A DNA stretch of 64,000 bases from assembly GCA_949987565.1 (NCBI GenBank), contig OX465120.1, positions 6,338,587 through 6,402,586 on the forward strand, given 5' to 3'. The DNA comes from Luidia sarsii. Lineage: Eukaryota > Echinodermata > Asteroidea > Paxillosida > Luidiidae. Below, in pieces: positions 11,516 to 64,000 of this stretch. Under the pieces are notes generated by a model. The model saw only the letters and a program-made list of their open reading frames with translations, had not been told where the DNA came from and made no database searches. Every line of letters starts with the position of its first letter. Within the stretch, counting starts at the first letter, position 1. The position numbers were made by a program, and so were the translations under genes.

Positions 11516-11619
11516 TCAACGCAATCATATAGGGAGAATGTCTCCGCTGTGCAAAGAATAAGAACAATCTGGAAGATTTCAAAAACACGGTCCAAACCTT
11601 CACTGAAAAAACTACTTAA

Positions 11620-14600
11620 GGCAATGCATTGAAAGTCTTTTTGAATCGCAGTGAAAATGTAAGACAAAGCATTGAAAGTCTTCGGAATTGCAGTGAAAAT
11701 GTAAGGCAGAGCATTGGAAGTCTTAAGAACCACAGTGAAAATGTAAGGCAAATCATTGAAGGTCTTAGGAATTGCAGTGAAAATGTAAGGCAGAGCATTA
11801 AAAGTCTTAGGAATCGCATTGAAAATGTAAGGCAAAGCATTGAAAGTCTTAGGAATTGCAGCGATATTGTAAGGCAAAGCATTGAAAGTCTTAGGAATTG
11901 CAGTGGTATTGTAAGGCAAAGCATTAAAACTCTTACAAATCGCAATGAAATTGTAAGACAAAGCATTGAAGGTCTTAGGAATTGCAGTGTAATTGTAAGG
12001 CAGAGCATTGAAAGTCTTAGGAACCACAGTGAAAATGTAAGGCAGAGCATTAAAAGTCTTAGGAATCGCAGTGAAAATGTAAGGCAAACCATTTAAAGTC
12101 TTAGGAACCACAGTGAAAATGTTAAGCAAAGCATTGAAAGTCTTAGGAATTGCAGTAAAAATGTAAGGCAAAGCATTGAAAGTCTAAGGAATCGCTGTGA
12201 AATTGTAAGGCAGAGCATTAAAAGTCTTATGAACCACAATGAAATTGTATGGCAAAGCATTAAAAGTCTTAGGAATTACAGTGAAAATGTAAGGCAGAGC
12301 ATTAAAAGTCTCAGGAATTGCAGTGAAAATGAAAGGTAAAGCATTGAAAGTCTTAGGATTCACAGTGTAATTGTAAGGCAGAGCATTCGAAGTCTTCGGA
12401 ACCACAGTGAAAATGTAAGGCAAATCATTGAAAGTCTTAGGAATTGCAGTGAAAATGTAAGGCAGAGCATTAAAAGTCTTAGGAATCGCATTGAAAATGT
12501 AAGGCAAACCATTTAAAGTCTTAGGAACCACAGTGAAAATGTTAAGCAAAGCATTGAAAGTCTCAGGAATTGCAGTGAAATTGTAAGGCAAAGCATTAAA
12601 AGTCTTACAAATCGCAATGAAATTGTAAGGCAAAGCATTGAAAGTCTGAGGAATTGCAGCGATATTGTAAGGCAAAGCATTGAAAGTCTTAGGTATTGCA
12701 GTGATATTTTAAGGCAAAGCATTAAAACTCTTACAAATCGCGATAAAATTGTAAGACAATGCATTGAAGGTCTTAGGAATTGCAGTGAAATTGTAAAGCA
12801 AAGCATTGAAAGTCTTAGAAATTACAGTAAAAATGTCAGGCAAAGCTTTGAAAGTCTAAGGAATCGCAGTAAAATTGTAAGTTAAAGCATTGATAATCTT
12901 AGGAATAACATTGAAATTGTAAGGCAAGGCATTGGAAGTCTTAGGATTCACAGTGAAAATGTAAGGCAAAGCATTGAAAGTCTTTGGAATCGCAGTGAAA
13001 ATGTAAGGCAAAGCATTGAAAGTCTTAGGAACAACAGTGAAAATATTAAGCAAAGCATTGAAAGTCTTAGGAATGCAGTGAAATTGTAAGTCAGAGCATT
13101 GGAAGTCATAGGAACCACAGTGAAAATGTAAGGCAAAGCATTGAAAGTCTTAGGAATTGCAGTGAAAATGTAAGGCAGAGCATTAAAAGTCTCAGGAATA
13201 GCAGTGAAAATGAGAGGTAAAGCATTGAAAGTCTTAGGATTCACAGTGAAAATGTAAGGCAAAACATTGAAAGTCTTAGGAACCACAGTGAAAATGTAAG
13301 GTAAAGCATTGACAGTCTACGGAATTGCAGTGAAAATGTTAGGCAGGGCATTAAAAGTCTTAGGAATTGCAGTAAAAATGTAAGATAAAGCATTAGAGGT
13401 CTGAGGAATCACAGAGAAAATGTAAGGCAAAGCATTGGATGTCTTAGGAATTGCAGTAAAATTTTAAGGCAAAGCATTGAAAGTCTAAGGAATTGCAGTG
13501 AAATTGTAACGCAAAGCATTAAAAGTCTTAGGATTCACAGTGAAAATGTAAGGCAAAACATTGAATGTCTTAGGAACCACAGTGAAAATGTAAGGCAAAA
13601 CATTGATAGTCTTCGGAAATGCAGTGAAAATGTAAGGCAAAGCATTGAAAGTCTTCGGAAATGCAGTGAAAATGTAAGGCAAAGCATTGGAGGTCTTAGG
13701 AATCACAGAGAAAATGTAAGGCAAAGCATTGGATGTCTTAGGAATTGCAGTAAAATTTTAAGGCAAAGCATTGAAAGTCTAAGGTCTTAGGAATCACAGA
13801 GAAAATGTAAGGCAAAGCATTGGATGTCTTAGGAATTGCAGTGAATTCTTAAGGCAAAGCATTGAAAGTCTTAGGAATCGCAATGAAATTGTAAGGCAAA
13901 GCATTGAAAGTCTTAGAAATTACAGTGAAAATGTCAGGCAAAGCTTTGAAAGTCTAAGGAATCGCGGTAAAATTGTAAGTTAAAGCATTGAAAGTCTTAG
14001 GAATAACATTGAAATTGTAAGGCAAGGCATTGGAAGTCTTAGGAATCACAGTGAAAATGTAAGGCAAAGCATTGAAAGTCTTTGGAATCGCAGTGAAAAT
14101 GTAAGGCAAAGCATTGAAAGTCTTAGGAACAACAGTGAAAATATTAAGCAAAGCATTGAAAGTCTTAGGAATGCAGTGAAATTGTAAGGCAAAGCATTGG
14201 GAGTCTGAAGAATTGCAGTGAACAAGTAAGGCACAGCATTAAACGTCTTAGGAATCACCTTTAAAATGTAAGGTAAAGCATTGAAAGTCTTAGGAATCGC
14301 AGTGAAAATGTAAGGCAAACCTTTCAAAGTCTTAGGAACCATAGTGAAAATGTCAGGCAAAGCTTTGAAAGTCTAAGGAATCGCAGTAAAATTGTAAGTT
14401 AAAGCATTGATAATCTTAGGAATAACATTGAAATTGTAAGGCAAGGCATTGGAAGTCTTAGGAATCACAGTTAAAATGTAAGGCAAAGCATTGGAAGTCT
14501 TAGGAATTGCAGTGAAAATATAAGGCAGAGCATTAAAAGTCTCAGGAATAGCAGTGAAAATGAGAGGTAAAGCATTGAAAGTCTTAGGATTCACAGTGAA

Positions 14601-17600
14601 AATGTAAGGCAAAACATTGAATGTCTAAGGAACCACAGTGAAAATGTAAGGTAAAGCATTGACAGTCTAAGGAATTGCAGTGAAATTGTAACGCAAAGCA
14701 TTAAAAGTCTTAGGATTCACAGTGAAAATGTAAGGCAAAACATTGAATGTCTTAGGAACCACAGTGAAAATGTAAGGCAAAGCATTGGATATCTTAGGAA
14801 TGCAGTGAAATTTTAAGGCAAAACATTGAATGTCTTAGGAACCACAGTGAAAATGTAAGGCAAAACATTGAAAGTCTTCGGAAATGCAGTGAAAATGTAA
14901 GGCAAAGCATTGAAAGTCTTCGGAATTGCAGTGAAAATGTAAGGTAAAGCATTAGAGGTCTTAGGAATCACAGAGAAAATGTAAGGCAAAGCATTGGATG
15001 TCTTAGGAATTGCAGTGAAAATGTAAGGCAGAGCATTAAAAGTCTTCGGAATTGCAGTGAAAATGTAAGGTAAAGCATTAGAGGTCTTAGGATTCACAGA
15101 GAAAATGGAATGCAAAGCATTGGATGTGATAAGAATTGCAGTGAATTTTTAAGGCAAAGCATTGAAAGTCTGAGGAATCGTAGTGAAAATGTAAGGCAAA
15201 GCATTGAAAGTCTTAGAAATTACAGTGAAAATGTCAGGCAAAGCTTTGAAAGTCTAAGGAATCGCAGTAAAATTGTAAGTTAAAGCATTGATAATCTTAG
15301 GAATAACATTGAAATTGTAAGGCAAGGCATTGTAAGTCTTAGAAACCACAGTGAAAATATTAAGCAAAGCATTGAAAGTCTTAGGAATCACAGTGAAAAT
15401 GTAAGGTAAAGCATTGAAAGTCTTAGGAACCACAGTGAAAATGTTAAGCAAAGCATTGAAAGTCTTAGGAATGCAGTGAAATTGTAAGTCAGAGCATTGG
15501 AAGTCATAGGAACCACAGTGAAAATGTAAGGCAAAGCATTGAAAGTCTTAGGAATTGCAGTGAAAATGTAAGGCAGAGCATTAAAAGTCTCAGGAATAGC
15601 AGTGAAAATGAGAGGTAAAGCATTGAAAGTCTTAGGATTCACAGTGAAAATGTAAGGCAAAACATTGAAAGTCTTAGGAACCACAGTGAAAATGTAAGGT
15701 AAAGCATTGACAGTCTACGGAATTGCAGTGAAAATGTTAGGCAGGGCATTAAAAGTCTTAGGAATTGCAGTAAAAATGTAAGATAAAGCATTAGAGGTCT
15801 GAGGAATCACAGAGAAAATGTAAGGCAAAGCATTGGATGTCTTAGGAATTGCAGTAAAATTTTAAGGCAAAGCATTGAAAGTCTAAGGAATTGCAGTGAA
15901 ATTGTAACGCAAAGCATTAAAAGTCTTAGGATTCACAGTGAAAATGTAAGGCAAAACATTGAATGTCTTAGGAACCACAGTGAAAATGTAAGGCAAAACA
16001 TTGATAGTCTTCGGAAATGCAGTGAAAATGTAAGGCAAAGCATTGAAAGTCTTCGGAAATGCAGTGAAAATGTAAGGCAAAGCATTGGAGGTCATAGGAA
16101 TCACAGAGAAAATGTAAGGCAAAGCATTGGATGTCTTAGGAATTGCAGTAAAATTTTAAGGCAAAGCATTGAAAGTCTAAGGTCTTAGGATTAACAGTGA
16201 AAATGTAAGGCAAAACATTGAATGTCTTAGGAACCACAGTGAAAATGTAAGGCAAAACATTGAAAGTCTTCGGAAATGCAGTGAAAATATAAGTCAAAGC
16301 ATTGAAAGTCTTAGGAATCACAGAGAAAATATAAGGCAAAGCATTGGATGTCTTAGGAATTGCAGTAAAATTTTAAGGCAAAGCATTGAAAGTCTAAGGT
16401 CTTAGGATTCACAGTGAAAATGTAAGGCAAAACATTGAATGTCTTAGGAACCACAGTGAAAATGTAAGGCAAAACATTGAAAGTCTTAGGAACCACAGTG
16501 AAAATGTAAGGCAAAACATTGAAAGTCTAAGGAATTGCAGTGAAAATGTAAGGCAAAGCATTGGAGGTCTTAGGAACCACAGTGAAAATGTAAGGCAAAA
16601 CATTGATAGTCTTCGGAAATGCAGTGAAAATGTAAGGCAAAGCATTGAAAGTCTTCGGAAATGCAGTGAAAATGTAAGGCAAAGCATTGGAGGTCTTAGG
16701 AATCACAGAGAAAATATATGGCAAAGCATTGGATGTCTTAGGAATTGCAGTAAAATTTTAAGGCAAAGCATTGAAAGTCTAAGGTCTTAGGATTCACAGT
16801 GAAAATGTAAGGCAAAACATTGAATGTCTTAGGAACCACAGTGAAAATGTAAGGCAAAACATTGAAAGTCTTCGGAAATGCAGTGAAAATATAAGGTAAA
16901 GCATTGGAGGTCTTAGGAATCACAGAGAAAATGTAAGGCAAAGCATTGGATGTCTTAGGAATTGCAGTGAATTCTTAAGGCAAAGCATTGAAAGTCTTAG
17001 GAATCGCAATGAAATTGTAAGGCAAAGCATTGAAAGTCTTAGAAATTACAGTGAAAATGTCAGGCAAAGCTTTGAAAGTCTAAGGAATCGCGGTAAAATT
17101 GTAAGTTAAAGCATTGAAAGTCTTAGGAATAACATTGAAATTGTAAGGCAAGGCATTGGAAGTCTTAGGAATCACAGTGAAAATGTAAGGCAAAGCATTG
17201 AAAGTCTTTGGAATCGCAGTGAAAATGTAAGGCAAAGCATTGAAAGTCTTAGGAACAACAGTGAAAATATTAAGCAAAGCATTGAAAGTCTTAGGAATGC
17301 AGTGAAATTGTAAGGCAAAGCATTGGGAGTCTGAAGAATTGCAGTGAACAAGTAAGGCACAGCATTAAACGTCTTAGGAATCACATTTAAAATGTAAGGT
17401 AAAGCATTGAAAGTCTTAGGAATCGCAGTGAAAATGTAAGGCAAACCTTTCAAAGTCTTAGGAACCATAGTGAAAATTTTAAGCAAAGCATTGAACGTCT
17501 TAGGAATTGCAGTGAAATTGTAAGGCAGAGCATTGAAAGTCTTAGGAACCACAGTGAAAATTTAAGGCAAAGCATTGAAAGTCTTAGGAATTGCAGTGAA

Positions 17601-20600
17601 AATGTAAGGCAGAGCATTGAAAGTCTTAGGAATTGCAGTGAAAATGTAAGGTAAAGCATTAGAGGTCTTAGGATTCACAGAGAAAATGTAATGCAAAGCA
17701 TTGGATGTGATAGGAATTGCAGTGAATTTTTAAGGCAAAGCATTGAAAGTCTTAGGAATCGTAGTGAAAATGTAAGGCAAAGCATTGAAAGTCTTCGAAA
17801 TTACAGTGAAAATGTCAGGCAAAGCTTTGAAAGTCTAAGGAATCGCAGTAAAAATGTAAGTTAAAGCATTGATAATCTTAGGAATAACATTGAAATTGTA
17901 AGGCAAGGCATTGGAAGTCTTAGGAATCACAGTAAAAATGTAAGGTAAAGCATTGAAAGTTTTAGAAATCACAGTGAAAATGTAAGGCAAAGCATTAAAA
18001 GTCTTAGGAATCGCAGTGAAAATGTAAAGCAAAGCATTGAAAGTCTTAGGAATTACAGAGAAAATGTAAGGCAAAGCATTGGATGTCTTAGGAATTGCAG
18101 TGAATTCTTAAGGCAAAGCATTGAAAGTCTTAGGAATCGCAATGAAATTGTAAGGCAAAGCATTGAAAGTCTTTGTTAGAAATTACAGTGAAAATGTCAG
18201 GCAAAGCTTTGAAAGTCTAAGGAATCGCAGTAAAATTGTAAGTTAAAGCATTGATAATCTTAGGAATAACATTGAAATTGTAAGGCAAGGCATTGGAAGT
18301 CTTAGGAATCACAGTTAAAATGTACGGTAAAGCGTTGAAAGTCTTAGGAATCACAGTGAAAATGTAAGGCAAAGCATTGAAAGTCTTAGGAATCGCAGTG
18401 AAAATGTAAGGCAAAGCAATGAAAGTCATAGGAATCACGGTGAAAACATTAAGCAAAGCATTGAAAGTCTTAGGAATCACAGTGGAATTGTAAGGCAAAC
18501 ACATTGGGAGTCTGAAGAATTGAAGTGAACTTTTAAGGCAAAGCATTGTAAGTCTTAGAAACCACAGTGAAAATATTAAGCAAAGCATTGAAAGTCTTAG
18601 GAATTGCAGTGAAATTGTAAGGCAAAGCATTGGGAGTCTGAAGAATTGCAGTGAAAATGTAAGGCACAGCATTAAACGTCTTAGGAATCACATTGAAAAT
18701 GTAAGGCAAAGCATTGGATGTCTTAGAAATTGCAGTGAAAATGTAAGGCAGAGCATTAAAAGTCTTAGGAATTGCAGTGAAAATTAAAGGTAAAGCATTA
18801 GAGGTCTGAGGAATCACAGAGAAAATGTAAGGCAAAGCATTGGATGTCTTAGGAATTGCAGTGAATTTTTAAAGCAAAGCATTGAAAGTCTTAGGAATCG
18901 CAGTGAAATTGTAAGGCAAAGCATTGAATGTCTTAGGAATTGCAGTGAAAATGTAAGGTAAAGCATTGAAAGTCTTAGGATTCACAGTGAAAATGTAAGG
19001 CAAAACATTGAAAGTCTTAGGAACCACATTGAAAATGTAAGGCAAAGCATTGAAAGTCTTCGGAATTGCAGTGAAAATGTTAGGCAGAAGATTAAAAGTC
19101 TTAGTAATTGCAGGGACAATGTAAGGTAAAGCATTAGAGGTCTTAGGAATCACAGAGAAAATGTAAGGCAAAGCATTGGATATCTTAGGAATGCAGTGAA
19201 ATTTTAAGGCAAAGCATTGAAAGTCTTAGGAACCATAGTGAAAATGTAAGGCAAAGCATTGAAAGTCTTCGGAATTGCAGTGAAAATGTAAGGCAAAGCA
19301 TTGAAAGTCTTCGGAATTGCAGTGAAAATGTAAGGTAAAGCATTAGAGGTCTTAGGAATCACAGAGAAAATGTAAGGCAAAGCATTGGATGTCTTAGGAA
19401 TTGCAGTGAAATTTTAAGGCAAAGCATTGAAAGTCTTTGTTAGAAATTACAGTGAAAATGTCAGGCAAAGCTTTGAAAGTCTAAGGAATCGCAGTAAAAT
19501 TGTAAGTTAAAGCATTGATAATCTTAGGAATAACATTGAAATTGTAAGGCAAGGCATTGGAAGTCTTAGGAATCACAGTTAAAATGTACGGTAAAGCGTT
19601 GAAAGTCTTAGGAATCACAGTGAAAATGTAAGGCAAAGCATTGAAAGTCTTAGGAATCGCAGTGAAAATGTAAGGCAAAGCAATGAAAGTCATAGGAATC
19701 ACGGTGAAAACATTAAGCAAAGCATTGAAAGTCTTAGGAATCACAGTGGAATTGTAAGGCAAACACATTGGGAGTCTGAAGAATTGAAGTGAACTTTTAA
19801 GGCAAAGCATTGTAAGTCTTAGAAACCACAGTGAAAATATTAAGCAAAGCATTGAAAGTCTTAGGAATTGCAGTGAAATTGTAAGGCAAAGCATTGGGAG
19901 TCTGAAGAATTGCAGTGAAAATGTAAGGCACAGCATTAAACGTCTTAGGAATCACATTGAAAATGTAAGGCAAAGCATTGGATGTCTTAGAAATTGCAGT
20001 GAAAATGTAAGGCAGAGCATTAAAAGTCTTAGGAATTGCAGTGAAAATTAAAGGTAAAGCATTAGAGGTCTGAGGAATCACAGAGAAAATGTAAGGCAAA
20101 GCATTGGATGTCTTAGGAATTGCAGTGAATTTTTAAAGCAAAGCATTGAAAGTCTTAGGAATCGCAGTGAAATTGTAAGGCAAAGCATTGAATGTCTTAG
20201 GAATTGCAGTGAAAATGTAAGGTAAAGCATTGAAAGTCTTAGGATTCACAGTGAAAATGTAAGGCAAAACATTGAAAGTCTTAGGAACCACATTGAAAAT
20301 GTAAGGCAAAGCATTGAAAGTCTTCGGAATTGCAGTGAAAATGTTAGGCAGAAGATTAAAAGTCTTAGTAATTGCAGGGACAATGTAAGGTAAAGCATTA
20401 GAGGTCTTAGGAATCACAGAGAAAATGTAAGGCAAAGCATTGGATATCTTAGGAATGCAGTGAAATTTTAAGGCAAAGCATTGAAAGTCTTAGGAACCAT
20501 AGTGAAAATGTAAGGCAAAGCATTGAAAGTCTTCGGAATTGCAGTGAAAATGTAAGGCAAAGCATTGAAAGTCTTCGGAATTGCAGTGAAAATGTAAGGT

Positions 20601-20853
20601 AAAGCATTAGAGGTCTTAGGAATCACAGAGAAAATGTAAGGCAAAGCATTGGATGTCTTAGGAATTGCAGTGAAATTTTAAGGCAAAGCATTGAAAGTCT
20701 TAGGAATTGCAGTGAAATTGAAAGGCAAAGCATTGAAAGTCTTAGGAATCACAGTGAAATTGTAAGGCAAAGCAATGGAAGTCTTAGGAATCGCAGTGAA
20801 AATGTTAGGCAAAGCATTGAAAGTCTTAGGAATCGCAGTGAAATTCTGAGACA
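11620..20853. repeat. 42-bp satellite array, about 220 units
   Basis: The unit starts GGCAAAGCATTGAAAGTCTT and continues AGGAATTGCAGTGAAAATGTAA; sequence variants differ mainly at AATTGC / AACCAC / ATCACA / TTCACA. Because 42 is divisible by three, long frames open on both strands: on minus a 14-residue unit LPYIFTAIPKTFNA, on plus RQSIESLRNCSENV. These frames are interrupted by stops (for example AAATTTTAAGG gives an in-frame TAA on minus) and by 41-bp units, so I regard the array as non-coding. The left flank is a PLE fragment and the right flank leads to a PLE tail at about 20,970. Confidence 0.93.
18169..20696. repeat. Two tandem copies of a 1,264-bp higher-order block in the satellite
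   Basis: The segment starting GTCTTTGTTAGAAATTACAG at about 18,169 recurs at about 19,433. Every frame between them repeats at an offset of exactly 1,264 bp with identical translation (for example 18,217-18,672 and 19,481-19,936). 1,264 is 30 units plus 4 bp. The duplication is very recent, or an assembly duplication. Confidence 0.85.
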
Positions 20854-34052: not shown

Positions 34053-34494
34053 TTCAATCACTTCAATCTTCCTGATCATTCGATTTCAGATATGAGTGTA
34101 CTGAGTATAGAATCACTTGGTCACCGTAGTAATGCTGTCCGTCTTAGCCGTGAGAAAATGTGGATGAAGCGTCTTCGGACTATTCAGCTACATGGTCTCA
34201 ACATCCAGGAGGGTAATGACTAACACCATGCAGCTTTCTGATAATCCTTCTTTTGTGTTCACTCCTTCACACTTCTCTCTTTGATCTTTGCCCCTCTAAT
34301 CACTAATCCCTACCCTACTCCTTGCCCTTCTCTTTGATCTTTCCCCCTCTTCTCACTAATCCCTACCCCGCTCCTTGCCCTTCCCTTTGATCTCTCCCTA
34401 CCAGCTTCACTCCTTGTCCTTTGTTTCTCATCCGTGTCCTATTCACTCTCCCCCTCCCTTCGTGTACATGTATCTATTTTGTCCTTGTCACTCT

Positions 34495-34533
34495 GCCTTT
34501 GAGAAAGGTCCTGCTAGGATCGAAACGTCAGGC
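34495..34533 (+). ncRNA. Hammerhead-like motif in PLE tail (U3/A8 core variant)
   Basis: The elements in order are stem I strand GCCT, core TTGAGAA, stem II GGTCCT-GCT-AGGATC, then GAAAC, GTC and stem I return AGGC. The canonical hammerhead core is CTGANGA. Here position 3 is U and position 8 is A, which could still pair. Helix III is only AC/GU with no loop, so it would need dimerisation. PLEs are known to carry hammerhead motifs; activity of this variant is untested. Confidence 0.55.
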
Positions 34534-34624
34534 CCACTAAATTTTAAAATTTACATTTTGGTAATTTTAGTCAGTAAGCAGTTTGCAACATGTTTGTATA
34601 TCACCTGAAGATCTTAAGAGGAAG

Positions 34625-35150
34625 TTAAAATACACCACAAATATGCACCAAATGACATCATCACTAGCATGAAAATGCATAATGCTCGTTTCCCGAATCG
34701 TGATCTTATATTTACCATCAACACCAAGCGACTATATACAATACCCCTGTGGGCCATCGCTTCAATCTCCCTAATCATTCCATTATTGACATGTCTGTAC
34801 AGGGCATAGTGGCCATTGGAAAGATACTGTCTGCCTCAGCAAGGAGAAACTGTGGATTAAGCGTCTCCGCACTATCCAGCATCATGCATCTTAAACGTCC
34901 AGGAAGGGAATGACTAATCCTCACCTCATTAATCTCTCTTGTCTTTCATCTTGTGCATGTCCCTCCTGTCCCTTTTGTTTTCCCTAATCTCCCTAATCTC
35001 CCTTGGTGAGCATCTGCGTCCCACTCCCTTCCCTTTTGTCCTTCCTCTGTAATGTATGTCAGGCCTTTCCTTCTCCTGACTGTGTGTGTATGTCCTTTGC
35101 CTTTGAGAAAGGTCCTGCTAAATGATCGAAACGTCATACCCTCTAAATTT
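34625..35150 (+). mobile_element. Second, truncated Penelope-like 3' end in tandem
   Basis: This is a degraded repeat of the preceding copy. TGTGGGCCATCGCTTCAATC (cf. PVGHRFNL), then ATCATTCCATTATTGACATG (NHSIIDMS) and AAGCGTCTCCGCACTATCCA (KRLRTIQ), followed by a pyrimidine-rich UTR and the tail GAGAAAGGTCCTGCTAAATG / ATCGAAACGTCA at 35,105-35,131. It lies head to tail with the previous copy, the usual PLE arrangement. Confidence 0.75.
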
Positions 35151-35319
35151 TGAGATAATATTTAATCGATAATTAATCAATTGTGTTGTATATTAATTTC
35201 AATAGGTTGTCTGGATCCTAAGGGTAGCTTACACCGTAGCTCCCTGATCCGTAGCACAAACACGATCAGACCCAGGGATCATCCCACAGGCGTGCCCATG
35301 CGGTAATATAATTATGCAA

Positions 35320-35450
35320 ACATGTTGCAAACTGCTTTATACTTACTAAAATTGTCAAAATGTAAACATCCAAAATTAAGAGGGCTTGACGTTTCGACCC
35401 TTTCTCAAACTCTTCGTTTGAGAAAGGTCCTGATAAAATCGAAATGTCAG
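35320..35450. repeat. Inverted pair of PLE tails
   Basis: The reverse tail (TTGCAAACTGCTTTATACTT, then GCTTGACGTTTCGACC, about 35,331-35,400) is followed directly by a forward tail (GTTTGAGAAAGGTCCTGATA, 35,414-35,450). The left arm has lost its stem II. Confidence 0.75.
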
Positions 35451-35589
35451 GACCCCTGATTCGTTTATAAAAAAAATCAGCACTTTACATTCGTAATTAT
35501 TCTGCCAATCAATTTAATGTATGGAGGAAAAGGGGATGTAAACATTTCAACTTGTTTCCCCGTATACAAACCTACATTTAAACCTACAT

Positions 35590-38216: not shown

Positions 38217-39030
38217 TTGGATGACATGCGATCACGTGACCAATTGAGTAAAAAAGCTCATAGATTTCTAACACCGATCAATTGTAGAACTGCTAGATTC
38301 TACCTTCTCCCGAAAATTCAAAAGACCAACAACCCAGGCAGACCCATCATCTCTGGCAATGGTTCACCTACGGAACACATCTCTCTTTTCATTGACTCTT
38401 TTCTCAGACCCTTGGTTCCCCCAAATCCCCTCATACGTCCATGACACTCCCGACTATCTGCGAAAGTTGGAAAGTGTTAAGGATCATATTCCGACCACTG
38501 CCATAATTGGTACCATTGACGTTTCCTCTCTATACACTAACATCCCCCCAGGAAGAAGGCATTCAAGCTTGATCCTCGGCCCTGGCCAAAGGAAAACAGT
38601 CTTCCCCCTCCCACCCCCATCTCTGACATAACCACCCTCATTAGGCTAGTGCTGGCCATACAAGAACAATTTCTCCTTTCTTGGCAAGCACTATCTTCAA
38701 GTGCATGGCACTGCCATGGGCACGCGCATGGCTCCTTCCTTTACTTGCCTCTTCATGGGTGACCTTGAGGAACGCATGCACAGTGAGGCTCCATGCCCTC
38801 GCTGGATTTGGTGGAGATACATAGATGACGTTTTCTTCATTTGGACTAGGGACGGTAGCAGCTTGAATTACTTCTTTGACCACATCAATTCCTTCCACAG
38901 GACTATCAAATTCACATGGGAGCAGTCTCTTCAGCAGACCCACTTTCTTGATGTCACCGTCCGGAAAGACCTCAATACACTTACTACTGACTTGTATTCT
39001 AAACCCACCGCAGCCCAATATCTCTAAGCC
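38217..39030 (+). pseudogene. PLE reverse transcriptase
   Basis: In three frames it reads ARFYLLPKIQKTNNPGRPII, NGSPTEHISLFIDSFLRPLV, TAIIGTIDVSSLYTNIP (motif A), VHGTAMGTRMAPSFTCLFMG (motif B region), WWRYIDDVFFIWTRD (motif C, YIDD) and THFLDVTVRKDLNTLTTDLY, KPT. Both catalytic aspartates of YIDD and the motif A aspartate are present. Frameshifts near 38,410, 38,550-38,700 and a stop near 39,027 prevent translation as one protein. Confidence 0.88.
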
Positions 39031-39834
39031 CAACATCTCCATGCCTCCAGTTGTCACCCTCAGATTCAGGCGCATATGTTCCAATGAGTTTGACTTTCGC
39101 CGTCATACACGTGTATTGGCCAGCAACTTGGTTGCTAGAGGCTATAGTTCTCGCCAAGTGAAGAACTCCATTGCTAAAGTCTATTCCATTCCCAGAAGTT
39201 CGGCACTCAAACAAAAGCCACCTGGTCCCATGGACAATCCCAAGGTTCCCTTAGTTACTTCCTACCACCGTTTTCTTCCTCCTCTCAGGAAGATAACTAA
39301 GGAAAACCACCATATTCTCCACACTTTGGCTTTCAGGCGCCCCTGTAACCTGCGTGACTTAATTGTCCGAGCAGAGGTTCCCCCTTTGGACACTTCACCT
39401 CCCACTAAATTTTGTACATTTAAGTGTACCTTTAAGTGCATTGTTTGCAAGACACATGTCAAGGAAATAGACTCTTTCAATGGGCATTCTTCTGGAACTA
39501 CCCGCACAAGCTATGTCTCATCACGTGCACTACCTCAAACATCATATGCCTCACCTCTTGTAGAGTTTGTAATGTTCAGTATGTTGGTGAGACCAAAAAC
39601 TCTCTCAAAAAACGTATCTATGGCCATAGGTCGACTATCAAAACCGTTAAAATGGACACCCCTATTGGGTCTCTCGTCAATCTCCCTGATCATTCGATAT
39701 CAGATATGAGTGTACTGGGCATAGAATCCCTTGGTCACCAAAGTAATGCTGTCCGTCTTAGCAGTGAGAAAATTTGGATGAAGCGACTTCGGACTATTCA
39801 ACCACATGGTCTCAACATCCAGGAGGGTAATGAC
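39030..39834 (+). pseudogene. PLE linker and GIY-YIG endonuclease
   Basis: The linker has SSALKQKPPGPMDNPKVPLV and RPCNLRDLIVRAEVPPL, then the Cys-containing FKCIVCK. After a shift to another frame come ICLTSCRVCNVQYVGETKNS (the VQYVGET strand with the GIY-YIG core tyrosine), LKKRIYGHRS (catalytic-arginine helix), then FNLPDHSI-like NLPDHSISDMSVLGIESLGH and KIWMKRLRTIQPHGLNIQEG, stop. The nuclease would nick target DNA for integration. Frameshifts at about 39,070 and 39,540. Confidence 0.87.
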
Positions 39835-40056
39835 TAACACCATGCTGCTTTCTGATAATCCTTCTTTTGTGTTCACTCCTCTATTTCTCTCTTTTATCTT
39901 TCCCCCTCCTCTCACTAATCCCTACCCCACTCCTTGGCCTTCCCTTGGATCTCACCCTACCAGCTTTCCTCTTTGTCCTTTATTTCTCATCCGTGTCCTA
40001 TTCACTCTCTTCCCTCTCCATTCATGTACATGTATCTGTTTTGTCCTTGTCACTCT

Positions 40057-40095
40057 GCATTTGAAAAAGGTCCTGCTAGGATCGAAACGTCAGGC
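40057..40095 (+). ncRNA. Hammerhead-like motif at PLE 3' end, core TTGAAAA
   Basis: This has the same architecture as 34,495-34,533, with stem II GGTCCT-GCT-AGGATC and GAAACGTCAGGC, but core position 7 is A and the stem I strand is GCAT. It is the natural end of the adjacent PLE ORF, which ties the motif to this family. Confidence 0.5.
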
Positions 40096-40119
40096 CCACT
40101 CAATTCTGAGCCATGATAT

Positions 40120-43282: not shown

Positions 43283-43435
43283 TGTTGCAAACTGCTTATT
43301 GACTAAAATTACGAAAATGCTAATCATAAAACTTAGTGGGCCTGACGTTTCAATTCTAGCAGGACCTTTCTCAAAGGCAGGACATTTTGAGAAAGGTCCT
43401 GCTAGGATCGAAACGTCAGGCCCACTAAATTGTAT
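43283..43435. repeat. Tail-to-tail PLE terminal repeats forming a long palindrome
   Basis: The reverse tail (TTGCAAACTGCTTATTGACT through TTTCTCAAA, 43,285-43,374) is followed after an 11-bp spacer by the forward tail (TTTGAGAAAGGTCCTGCTAG, then GATCGAAACGTCAGGCCCAC). The arms match over about 44 bp with two to three differences. The forward arm holds the U3/A8 hammerhead-like core. Confidence 0.9.
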
Positions 43436-48429: not shown

Positions 48430-48985
48430 GGGTGCGTTCTATCAGTGTGGGGTCATGCATGAGTCTTTCCTTAGTTAACAAACAGGCCTCGCCTGTGGGG
48501 ACATTGGTGAATTGGGAAACTACATCGAAGCGGACCAGCAAATCAGTGTGAGTTTCTTAGTGATGTCGACGAAGTGGGTAGAGTTGGCGACGAAATGTGT
48601 AGATTGACCCACCGAGGGTTTGAGTAATTTGGCTAAATATTGGGCGGTGTTTTACGTGGGGGAACCTCTAGAGGCAACGATGGGGCGAAGTGGGGCATCT
48701 GGTTGGTGGATCTTCGGTTGCCCGAAGAACCTGGGGCAGACGGAACTGGAGGGTCTAAGGGCAAGGCTTGCCATGTGTAGGATGTAGTGCGACCGCCGGT
48801 TCCGAACAGGATCATGGAGACATAAGCCGGGAGGGATGATGTTGGAGTCGCGGCAACGCTTGAGGAAGGTCAGGTTGTTGATGAGTTTCGAACGACGGAT
48901 GGACGTGCGTTCGAAATCCCTGACCAGGTTGATGGCCAGCTCTCCGTAGAGCGAGAATAAATGAGACTTAAGGCTTTGCATGGTG
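48430..48985 (-). pseudogene. Penelope-like element RT fragment of a second lineage
   Basis: On the minus strand: LKSHLFSLYGELAINLVRDF, then LTFLKRCRDSNIIPPGLCLH, FGQPKIHQPDAPLRPIVASR and GSPT, and after a frame change VRFDVVSQFTNVPTGEACLL (motif A) and TKERLMHDPTLIERTQ. The order and the KxHxPxxPLRPIVSSxGSPT box are PLE-type, but the sequence differs from the plus-strand family (ITSIDVVSxYTNI there, VRFDVVSxFTNVPT here). It is cut at 48,430 by the duplicated segment. Its own upstream hammerhead is at 49,076-49,115. Confidence 0.82.
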
Positions 48986-49075
48986 GGTGAATCAATATAG
49001 GAAGGTTTGCGGTGAACACCATGTATCAGGTCTCTTAAAGGAAGAGGTATGGTTCTGAAAAGAACCTGAGGGTAA

Positions 49076-49115
49076 CTCGACGTTTCGACCAGTATGCTCT
49101 GTCCGTCATCAGGAG
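49076..49115 (-). ncRNA. Canonical hammerhead ribozyme motif in PLE terminal repeat
   Basis: On the minus strand: stem I CTC, core CTGATGA, an extra C, imperfect stem II GGACAG-AGCATA-CTGGTC, then GAAAC, GTC cleavage triplet and stem I return GAG. All invariant core positions are present. Helix III is two base pairs (AC/GU) with no loop, as in minimal PLE hammerheads thought to work as dimers. It lies just upstream of the PLE ORF on the same strand, where the element's terminal repeat is expected. Confidence 0.8.
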
Positions 49116-49252
49116 AATGTCTTGTGATCGGTGGTGGAACTCCTTATGTACCGGTGGTCGCTGGGGCGGGAAGGCGGGAAAGATAATCCTCTGGGGAGGA
49201 TTATCCTAAGGGGGGCTTAGGTCACTGAGGTGGGAAGGCGGGAAAACCCTAG

Positions 49253-49984: not shown

Positions 49985-50145
49985 CAAAATTCAGCGGGCC
50001 TGACGTTTCTATCCTAGCAGGACATTTCTCAAAGGCAGAGTCACTCTGCCTGTTAGAAAGATCCTGCTAGGATAAAAATGTCAGCCCCACTATAGTACAA
50101 GATTTGCATATTGGTAATTTTAGTCAGTAAGTAGTTTGCAACGTA
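49985..50145. repeat. Tail-to-tail PLE terminal repeats (second palindrome)
   Basis: The reverse tail GGGCCTGACGTTTCTATCCT...TTTCTCAAAGGCAGAG is followed by forward CTCTGCCTGTTAGAAAGATC, CTGCTAGGATAAAAATGTCA, then TTTTAGTCAGTAAGTAGTTT and GCAAC. This is the same layout as 43,283-43,435 but more diverged on the right arm. Confidence 0.85.
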
Positions 50146-52381: not shown

Positions 52382-52454
52382 GGCTGGATAGCTCAGATGG
52401 TAGAGCGCGGGTACGGTAATCCAGAGGTCTCGGGTTTGAGTCCCGGTTCAGTCA
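52382..52454 (+). tRNA. tRNA-like gene, Thr-type body with altered anticodon arm (likely pseudogene)
   Basis: This 73-nt cloverleaf has acceptor GGCTGGA pairing with TTCAGTC (seven pairs including G-U), D arm GCTC/GAGC and T arm TCGGG/CCCGG. The A box TAGCTCAGATGG is intact; the B box is GGTTTGAGTCC, one base from consensus. The anticodon arm CGGGT-ACGGTAA-TCCAG has two mismatches and C instead of U at position 33. By position the anticodon would be GGT (Thr). The good outer stems but poor anticodon stem suggest a pseudogene or a tRNA-derived SINE head. Confidence 0.55.
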
Positions 52455-54415: not shown

Positions 54416-54550
54416 ATACAAAAACTGTTGCAAACTGCTCACTGACTAAAAAATAATGGTCTGCAATACATAGATCTCAAAAGTTAGCCTTTGAGAAAGG
54501 TCCTGCTAGCAGTGCTGTGATCAAAACATCAGGGTTAGGGTTAGGGTTGA
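54416..54550 (+). repeat. PLE tail joined to telomere-like TTAGGG repeats (in intron 2)
   Basis: An inverted tail piece (TTGCAAACTGCTCACTGACT, 54,440) is followed by CCTTTGAGAAAGGTCCTGCT, a disturbed stem II, ATCAAAACATC, and then AGGGTTAGGGTTAGGGTT at 54,531-54,548. Other copies read GTC-AGGCCCAC at this point, so the junction falls right after the predicted ribozyme cleavage triplet. Confidence 0.75.
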
Positions 54551-54719: not shown

Positions 54720-55870
54720 CAACAGCTCTCCTTCATGGGTGACCTTGAGAAACGCATGCTCAGTGAGGCTCCATGCCGTCCCTGGATTGGGAGGAGATAC
54801 ATATAGATGACGTTTTTTCATTTGAACTAGGGACGGTAGCCGCTTGAATGCCTTCTTTGACCACATCAATTCCTTCCACAGCACTATCAAATTCACATGG
54901 GAGCACTCTCCAGCAGACACACTTTCTGGATGTCGCCGTCCGGAAAGACCCCAACACACTTACTACTGACTTGTATTCTAAGCCCACCGACACTCATCAA
55001 TATCTCCATGCCTCCAGTTGTCACTCCAGACACTGTGAGCTTACAGCCAAGCCCTCAGATGGAGGCACATATGTTCCAATGAGTCTGACTTTCGCTGCCA
55101 TACACGTGTATTGGCCAGTAATAAACTTGATTGCTAGAGGCTATAGTTCTCGCCAAGTGAAAAATTCCATTGCTAAAGTGTATTCCATTCCCAGAAGTTC
55201 GGCACTCAAACAAAAGCCACCAGGTCTCAAGGACAAGCCCAAGGTTCACTTAGTTATTTCCTACCACCCTTCTCTTCCTCCTCTCAGGAAGTTAACTAAG
55301 GAAAACCACCATATTCTCCACACTTAAGATCGTTTGGCTGATGCCATTCCATACTCGCCTGTTTTGGCTTTCAGGCGCCTTCGTAACCTGCGTGACTTAA
55401 TTGTCGAGCAGAGGTTCCGCTTTGGACACTTCACCTCCAACCAAATTTGGTACATTTAAGTGTACCTCGAAATGCATTGTTTGCAAGACACATGTCAAGG
55501 AAATAGACTCTTTCAATGGACATTCTTCTGGAAGTACTCACATGACATATGGCTCTATCACTTGCACTACCTCAAACATCATATACCTCATCTCTTGTAC
55601 AGTTTGTAATGGTCAGTATGTTGACGAGAGTGTTCACTCCAAACTTTTCTCTTTGCTCTTCCCTTTGATCTCACTAATGCCTACCCTACTCCTTGCTCTT
55701 CCCTTTGATCTCACCCTACCAGCTTTTCTCTTTATCCTTTGTTTCTCATGCGTGTCCTATTCACTCTCTTCCCCCTTCCTTCGTGTACATGTATCTGTTT
55801 TGTCCTTGTCACTCTGCCTTTCAGAAAGGTCCTGCTAGGATCGAAACGTCAGGCCCACTAAATTTTGAGA
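54720..55870 (+). mobile_element. Truncated Penelope-like element in reductase intron 2
   Basis: Degraded coding pieces: WVTLRNAC-like start, a broken YIDDVFFI region (54,800), DHINSFHSTIKFTWEHS, then SSALKQKPPG, FKCTSKCIVCKTHVKEIDSF and SNIIYLISCTVCNGQYVDE (cf. VQYVGE). The sequence then jumps to the pyrimidine-rich 3' UTR (55,640), so the GIY-YIG C-terminus is deleted. The tail motif is at 55,816-55,854 with core TTCAGAA. Confidence 0.85.
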
Positions 55871-63917: not shown

Positions 63918-64000
63918 AAGGTGGGCCTGACGTTTTGACCCTAGCATGACCTTCCTCATATGCCTTACCCATTCTGCCTTTGAGAAAGGCCCGACTAAGA
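63918..64000. repeat. Tail-to-tail PLE repeats at window end
   Basis: Reverse tail GTGGGCCTGACGTTTTGACC, CTAGCATGACCTTCCTCATA, then forward CTGCCTTTGAGAAAGGCCCG, cut by the window edge. Confidence 0.8.

Follow-up and report, generated by a model that had tools for sequence, protein, structure and literature searches.

Hammerhead ribozymes have already been described in Penelope-like elements (PLEs), where they occur as minimal motifs without helix III (PMC6155905). According to this source, which refers to Cervera and de la Pena (2014) and to Lunse, Weinberg and Breaker (2017), these hammerheads are located in the pseudo-LTR, hold two stems, end in GAAACGUC and carry a C3-G8 pair in their core. 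The replacement of this pair is also known. Perreault et al. (PMC3088659) reported in 2011 several natural hammerheads in which covariation turns C3 and G8 into U3 and A8, and the same paper, citing Przybilski and Hammann 2007 (its reference 32), states that activity in vitro had been demonstrated for ribozymes with covarying 3/8 positions. In the light of these natural U3-A8 hammerheads, the statement of the first-pass annotation that hammerheads need CTGANGA is too strict.

The role of this pair and of cleavage has also been addressed in the PLE PAc from Anolis (PMC11167929). In this hammerhead, either C3G or G8C abolishes activity, while the double change C3G/G8C regains part of it. The ribozyme is reported to cleave only when the protein of the element is present, insertion in vitro does not require the ribozyme, and RNA-seq showed no ends at the position where it cleaves.

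The motif analysed here is located at 34495-34533 (plus strand) of a window of 64,000 nucleotides, the whole stretch of DNA analysed, from the sea star Luidia sarsii. It represents the hammerhead motif that one PLE family, referred to as F1, carries in its pseudo-LTR. As both the U3-A8 swap and the presence of hammerheads in PLEs were already known, F1 is a new and very abundant case of them. It shows the same replacement of C3-G8 by U3-A8 as the natural hammerheads of Perreault et al., but section 8 of PMC3088659 does not place its cases in PLEs, whereas the F1 variant resides in a PLE with more than 20,000 copies. From the minimal PLE hammerheads, as described in PMC6155905, it is set apart by U3-A8 in place of C3-G8.

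The letters of the motif are, in order, GCCT, TTGAGAA, A, GGTCCT, GCT, AGGATC, GAA, ACGT, C and AGGC, which make up stem I, the UUGAGAA core, stem II and GAAACGUC (Table 1; nucleotide positions are numbered by the established hammerhead convention). The letters C3 and G8 themselves are absent from the core at 34499-34505, but U4, G5, A6 and A9 are present and U3 is complementary to A8, which maintains a Watson-Crick 3-8 pair. G12, A13, A14, the A15.1-U16.1 pair and a cleavable nucleotide 17 are found as GAAACGTC at 34522-34529, and cleavage is predicted to take place after 34529 (C17). Stems I and II both appear in the minimum-energy fold. No intramolecular stem III is found: because AC and GU abut in the ACGT of the motif, with no loop between the arms, this stem is unable to close within one motif. 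A closing stem III is a defining feature of full hammerheads, and its lack agrees with the description of PLE hammerheads in PMC6155905. The arrangement of stem I, core and stem II proposed by the first-pass annotation is thus confirmed by the letters and by the minimum-energy fold, and two features that it did not mention can be added, the unpaired A at 34506 and the loopless AC/GU.

An unpaired nucleotide at this place is a regular component of these motifs. Among 95 distinct sampled instances, 72 form 4 bp or more in stem II, and in 71 of these 72 the best fit places a single additional nucleotide between A9 and this stem (43 U3-A8, 24 C3-G8 and 5 others, from loci picked non-randomly by Y3/R8 patterns or reverse transcriptase (RT) hits). 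The sampled loci of the C3-G8 groups hold this additional nucleotide too. De la Pena and Flores reportedly described in 2001 a viroid hammerhead with an extra core nucleotide, and the CChMVd hammerhead is a case with an extra A after A9; this resembles F1, although the ribozyme belongs to a viroid and not to a PLE. The RNA printed for PAc in PMC11167929, CUGAGGA U GCC..GGC GAAACGUC AGG, shares with F1 a G at N7, GAAACGUCAGG and an additional nucleotide that separates A9 from stem II, this last point being our reading and not a statement of that paper. It differs in its C3-G8 pair and in the fact that its ORF starts at stem II. None of the three F1 elements with a usable upstream stretch has an ORF starting inside the hammerhead, their ATG lying 215-216 nt past the cleavage site.

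Table 1. Window coordinates of the parts of the F1 motif, of the PLE coding pieces and of other motif copies.
Feature	Position	Strand	Basis
Stem I, 5' side (GCCT)	34495..34498	+	sequence, fold
Core UUGAGAA (U3 = 34499, A8 = 34504)	34499..34505	+	sequence; census reads T/A
Additional unpaired nucleotide (A), A9 to stem II	34506	+	sequence; 71/72 sampled instances alike
Stem II GGTCCT/AGGATC, loop GCT	34507..34521	+	fold
G12 A13 A14; A15.1 C / G U16.1 (palindrome ACGU, loopless); C17	34522..34529	+	sequence
Stem I, 3' side (AGGC)	34530..34533	+	sequence, fold
PLE ORF end (GIY-YIG C-terminus, ...GLNIQEGND and stop), 275 nt before U3	34077..34223	+	translation; same ending in intact elements
PLE reverse transcriptase piece	38653..39024	+	RVT_1 E 0.0018, below cut-off; 150 scored genome hits
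Open frame, PLE GIY-YIG C-terminus	39436..39837	+	GIY-YIG E 0.0074, below cut-off; open frame
F1 motif copy, T3/A8	35095..35151	+	census
F1 motif copy, T3/A8, lesion GAAATGTC	35410..35466	+	census
F1 motif copy, T3/A8, core TTGAAAA, behind the 39436..39837 ORF	40053..40105	+	census
F1 motif copy, T3/A8, head-to-head with the 43386..43431 copy	43328..43380	-	census
F1 motif copy, T3/A8	43386..43431	+	census
Motif from another PLE family, standard core CTGATGA (C3-G8)	49079..49112	-	sequence
F1 motif copy, T3/A8	49986..50040	-	census
Damaged F1 motif copy, T3/A8, lesion ATCAAAACATC	54487..54533	+	census
F1 motif copy, T3/A8, G5 to C	55812..55866	+	census

The host element was characterized from the coding pieces that accompany the motif. 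The distance from the stop codon to U3 is 275-281 nt in the sampled elements with the usual stop and a readable motif, and 275 nt in the window. In a genome search with the RT piece at 38653-39024, 150 of 1,603 candidates were scored, and many of the listed places hold frames of 943-962 aa; one F1 frame, read from its ATG, encodes 887 aa. A single ORF joins the RT to a C-terminal GIY-YIG domain, the latter above the Pfam cut-off and RVT_1 below it, at E 1.3e-5. Among the best 120 of 1,685 relatives of the F1 ORF (7,993 candidates scored) are sea cucumber, sea star and sea urchin proteins with 53-69% identity and amphioxus proteins with 46-48% identity. No solved structure resembling the ORF was retrieved at E up to 0.01. 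The location in a PLE pseudo-LTR, beside RT/GIY-YIG ORFs, supports the earlier proposal of a PLE-tail hammerhead motif with a U3-A8 pair.

Upstream sequence was retrieved for four long-frame F1 elements, in one case too short a stretch to be used. The three usable stretches all show a similar pseudo-LTR that bears a U3-A8 motif, followed by the ORF, so that tandem copies provide pseudo-LTRs on both sides of the ORF, a layout known for PLEs (PMC11167929, PMC3846280). The elements L089, L091 and L092 start within or just before the end of the preceding ORF copy. Two other ways of linking motif and ORF were considered and dropped. An ORF running through the motif as in PAc, read from the proteins of the relatives, gave no convincing case, with three loose pattern hits in a set of 121 proteins that included the query; as for a spliced leader, several relatives begin near the same start.

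The state of positions 3 and 8 in source elements was read from 30 loci of the RT search (30 of the 150 hits). A downstream motif was readable in 25 of them, and it is U3-A8 in all 25, including the 12 loci (12/12) whose frame reaches 850 aa or more. Of the remaining five, L059 and L060 have a T/A motif at another place of the locus, and three show no motif in the locus. Since the 12 downstream motifs and the three upstream motifs seen (3/3) at long-frame loci all carry U3-A8, this pair is the state of the source elements and not a product of decay. The first-pass annotation had suggested checking whether U3-A8 is fixed in intact copies; it was found in all the long-frame loci read, the alternative that intact elements would all be C3-G8 was not, and its idea of a founder variant gains support from the same loci. 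Identity in the ORF region among seven long-frame loci ranges from 0.907 to 0.999 (position by position, ungapped), indicating that some F1 copies are recent.

In the window, copies were counted by alignment with positions 3 and 8 kept neutral and a score threshold applied. This census gave 18 rows: 11 T/A, one C/A, one G/A, one A/G and four with one or both positions missing; the row at 40081, in this last class, duplicates part of another row, and the rows do not include a match at 63979-63992, near the window end. The five copies named earlier (34.5, 35.1, 35.4, 43.4 and 54.5 kb) all turned out to have T3 and A8, and further T/A copies are present at 21.5 (weak), 40.05, 43.33 (minus strand), 44.5, 50.0 (minus strand) and 55.8 kb. 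With up to three mismatches, TTTGAGAAAGGTCC matches the window 25 times, against 7.4 +/- 2.7 in shuffles. The C3-G8 copy at 49079-49112 lies inside an open frame (48652-49143, minus strand) that resembles a PLE N-terminus and has no Pfam match. Downstream of it, at 49027-49071 (minus strand), there is a stem-loop that scores 26.7 bits with the histone 3' stem-loop family, without reaching the cut-off of 34, and CAGGTTCTTTTCAGAACC recurs behind other C3-G8 motifs too. The window also holds a tandem array of 9.2 kb at 11617-20843 (about 219 copies of a 42-bp unit) and a tRNA-like sequence at 52382-52454 (plus strand) which, with 44.5 bits, exceeds the Rfam cut-off.

The genome (470.9 Mb, 227 contigs) was searched with a pattern holding Y at position 3, R at position 8 and GAAACGTC 8-30 nt away, with the reversed pattern as control. 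A total of 33,548 matches was obtained, versus 658 for the control. U3-A8 accounts for 27,359 (control 231), C3-G8 for 4,293 (control 81), C3-A8 for 1,086 (control 199) and U3-G8, by subtraction, for 810, the two mixed states summing to 1,896. Among 100 of the 4,293 C3-G8 matches, at least three recurrent groups that differ in their stem II letters were distinguished (CTGATGAC-GGCCAG..CTGGTC, CTGAAGAC-GAGCAG..CTGTTC and CTGATGAA-GGTT..AACC), plus rarer ones, and stem II stays paired across motif groups despite the differing letters. One of the C3-G8 motif groups is represented in the window, by the copy at 49079-49112. The motif is short and its fold energy lies within the range of shuffled sequences, as a chance resemblance to a hammerhead would have it, but this explanation can practically be dismissed in view of the excess over the reversed control and the fixed place of the motif beside PLE ORFs. 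Viral contigs point the same way: they gave 16 and 15 core-only matches, none of the 31 forming 4 bp or more of stem II at the expected place, and no PLE.

How the pair changed was approached by counting its states within F1, with the F1 stem II fixed. U3-A8 was found 21,624 times, C3-A8 533 times, U3-G8 325 times and C3-G8 14 times. The first-pass annotation had read the double change shared by dispersed copies as a sign of selection on the pair. It is very improbable that U3-A8 was selected repeatedly in this genome by way of copies acquiring compensatory changes. Such a view could invoke the 14 C3-G8 doubles, against 8.0 expected by independence (odds ratio 1.75, Fisher P 0.049), but this small excess is explainable by copy age alone, as older copies carry more changes at every site, and 2 of the 14 doubles do not have the usual loop. 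Moreover, no second large U3-A8 family was seen among 100 of the 1,215 matches with U3-A8 and an N7 other than G (control 187), these 100 being mainly mutated F1. As single changes (858) far exceed doubles, the copies give no clear sign of pair selection, and the copy counts were rejected as evidence for it. The independent variation of U3 and A8, proposed beforehand as an observation that would speak against a linked pair, does occur in part, and the decay of dead insertions would also produce it. Since U3-A8 appears here as a large family only once, it is counted as one event, and the joint change looks like a single founder event after which the pair was retained, be it by selection or by luck.

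Folding predictions give a mixed picture. The minimum-energy fold of 34491-34536 (-11.7 kcal/mol) shows a stem I of 4 bp, a stem II of 6 bp (one G-U) and an open core, yet this energy is ordinary (z -0.44) and proves nothing, as 56 of 200 shuffles do equally well or better. For the C3-G8 copy at 49079-49112, the minimum-energy fold is not a hammerhead. The Rfam hammerhead models recognized neither the F1 motif (E up to 10) nor the copy with the standard core at 49 kb, and a search of the genome with RF00163 gave no match anywhere, controls included, so that Rfam says little on whether F1 is a hammerhead. A double hammerhead was also modelled by two-strand folding and rejected, the best predicted dimer being another, longer pairing.

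Taken together, F1 probably carries a minimal, type-I-like hammerhead in the pseudo-LTR of a young, tandem-copy PLE, whose founder changed from C3-G8 to U3-A8 and whose RNA still folds and can cleave. The letters, the stems, the 3/8 complementarity, the U3-A8 state beside long frames and the C3-G8 state of other groups are its observed basis, and it is supported because of the 33,548 matches versus 658, the 12 of 12 long-frame loci, the RT and GIY-YIG domains, the minimum-energy fold and the paired stem II. The natural, in vitro active U3-A8 hammerheads of PMC3088659, the missing helix III of PLE hammerheads (PMC6155905) and the partial rescue by C3G/G8C in PAc (PMC11167929) speak for it as well. 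F1 would descend from a founder in which the core pair had already gone from C3-G8 to U3-A8. Its RNA would fold as a PLE-type hammerhead and cleave after C17, by analogy slowly and weakly as a single motif, and more readily if a dimer forms through the palindromic ACGU or the protein of the element assists, and this cleavage may help to cut tandem PLE transcripts into units. Instead of being lethal, the swap itself would be neutral or mildly tuning, as U-A retains Watson-Crick pairing and leaves the 2'-OH of position 8 in place. Against this reading stand the missing Rfam match, though the C3-G8 copy was missed as well, and the folding results, that is, an energy within the shuffle range, a non-hammerhead best fold of the C3-G8 copy and a dimer that pairs otherwise. 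The Anolis element also counts against it, for PMC11167929 describes its cleavage as protein-dependent and dispensable for in vitro insertion, with no RNA-seq ends at the site.

The same observations leave some room, at a clearly lower probability, for a former hammerhead that no longer cleaves usefully, whose stem-loop is kept for reverse transcription or protein binding, with U3-A8 preserving the fold. The motif is found at the edge of insertions: of 90 copies, 49 lose similarity to the reference pseudo-LTR of L089 at 5-29 nt beyond the cleavage site and 34 at 65-94 nt, and upstream the similarity ends no more than 24 nt from the core in 56 of the 90. An inverted partner within 110 nt upstream is present in 28 of 95 F1 copies, versus 2 of 16, 1 of 12 and 0 of 3 in three C3-G8 groups. 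Given the position at the insertion edge and the inverted partners, a structural function when reverse transcription starts has to be taken seriously as an alternative to catalysis, and the Anolis hammerhead mutants, which insert normally in vitro (PMC11167929), agree with it. However, intact F1 copies retain the full core, including G12, A9 and C17, and positions 3 and 8 are altered in a manner that preserves pairing. F1 motifs often occur head to head, a few bases apart (43328-43431 and other loci), resembling the junctions of inverted pseudo-LTRs known from rotifer PLEs (PMC3846280).

A further step can be imagined, which we regard as a long shot: U3-A8 would have tuned down the ribozyme of F1, the most abundant PLE family found here, so that cleavage awaits its own protein or a second copy, an adaptation that would protect the full-length template RNA and may have aided F1 in outgrowing its C3-G8 neighbours. 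For the detection of such elements, scans that demand CUGANGA miss F1, and neither of the two forms sampled here is recognized by the Rfam hammerhead models. This genome offers a natural comparison, in which a U3-A8 motif in more than 20,000 copies is found beside C3-G8 motifs in thousands, and it permits a direct test of the role of the 3-8 pair in the rate of the ribozyme and in the spread of PLEs.
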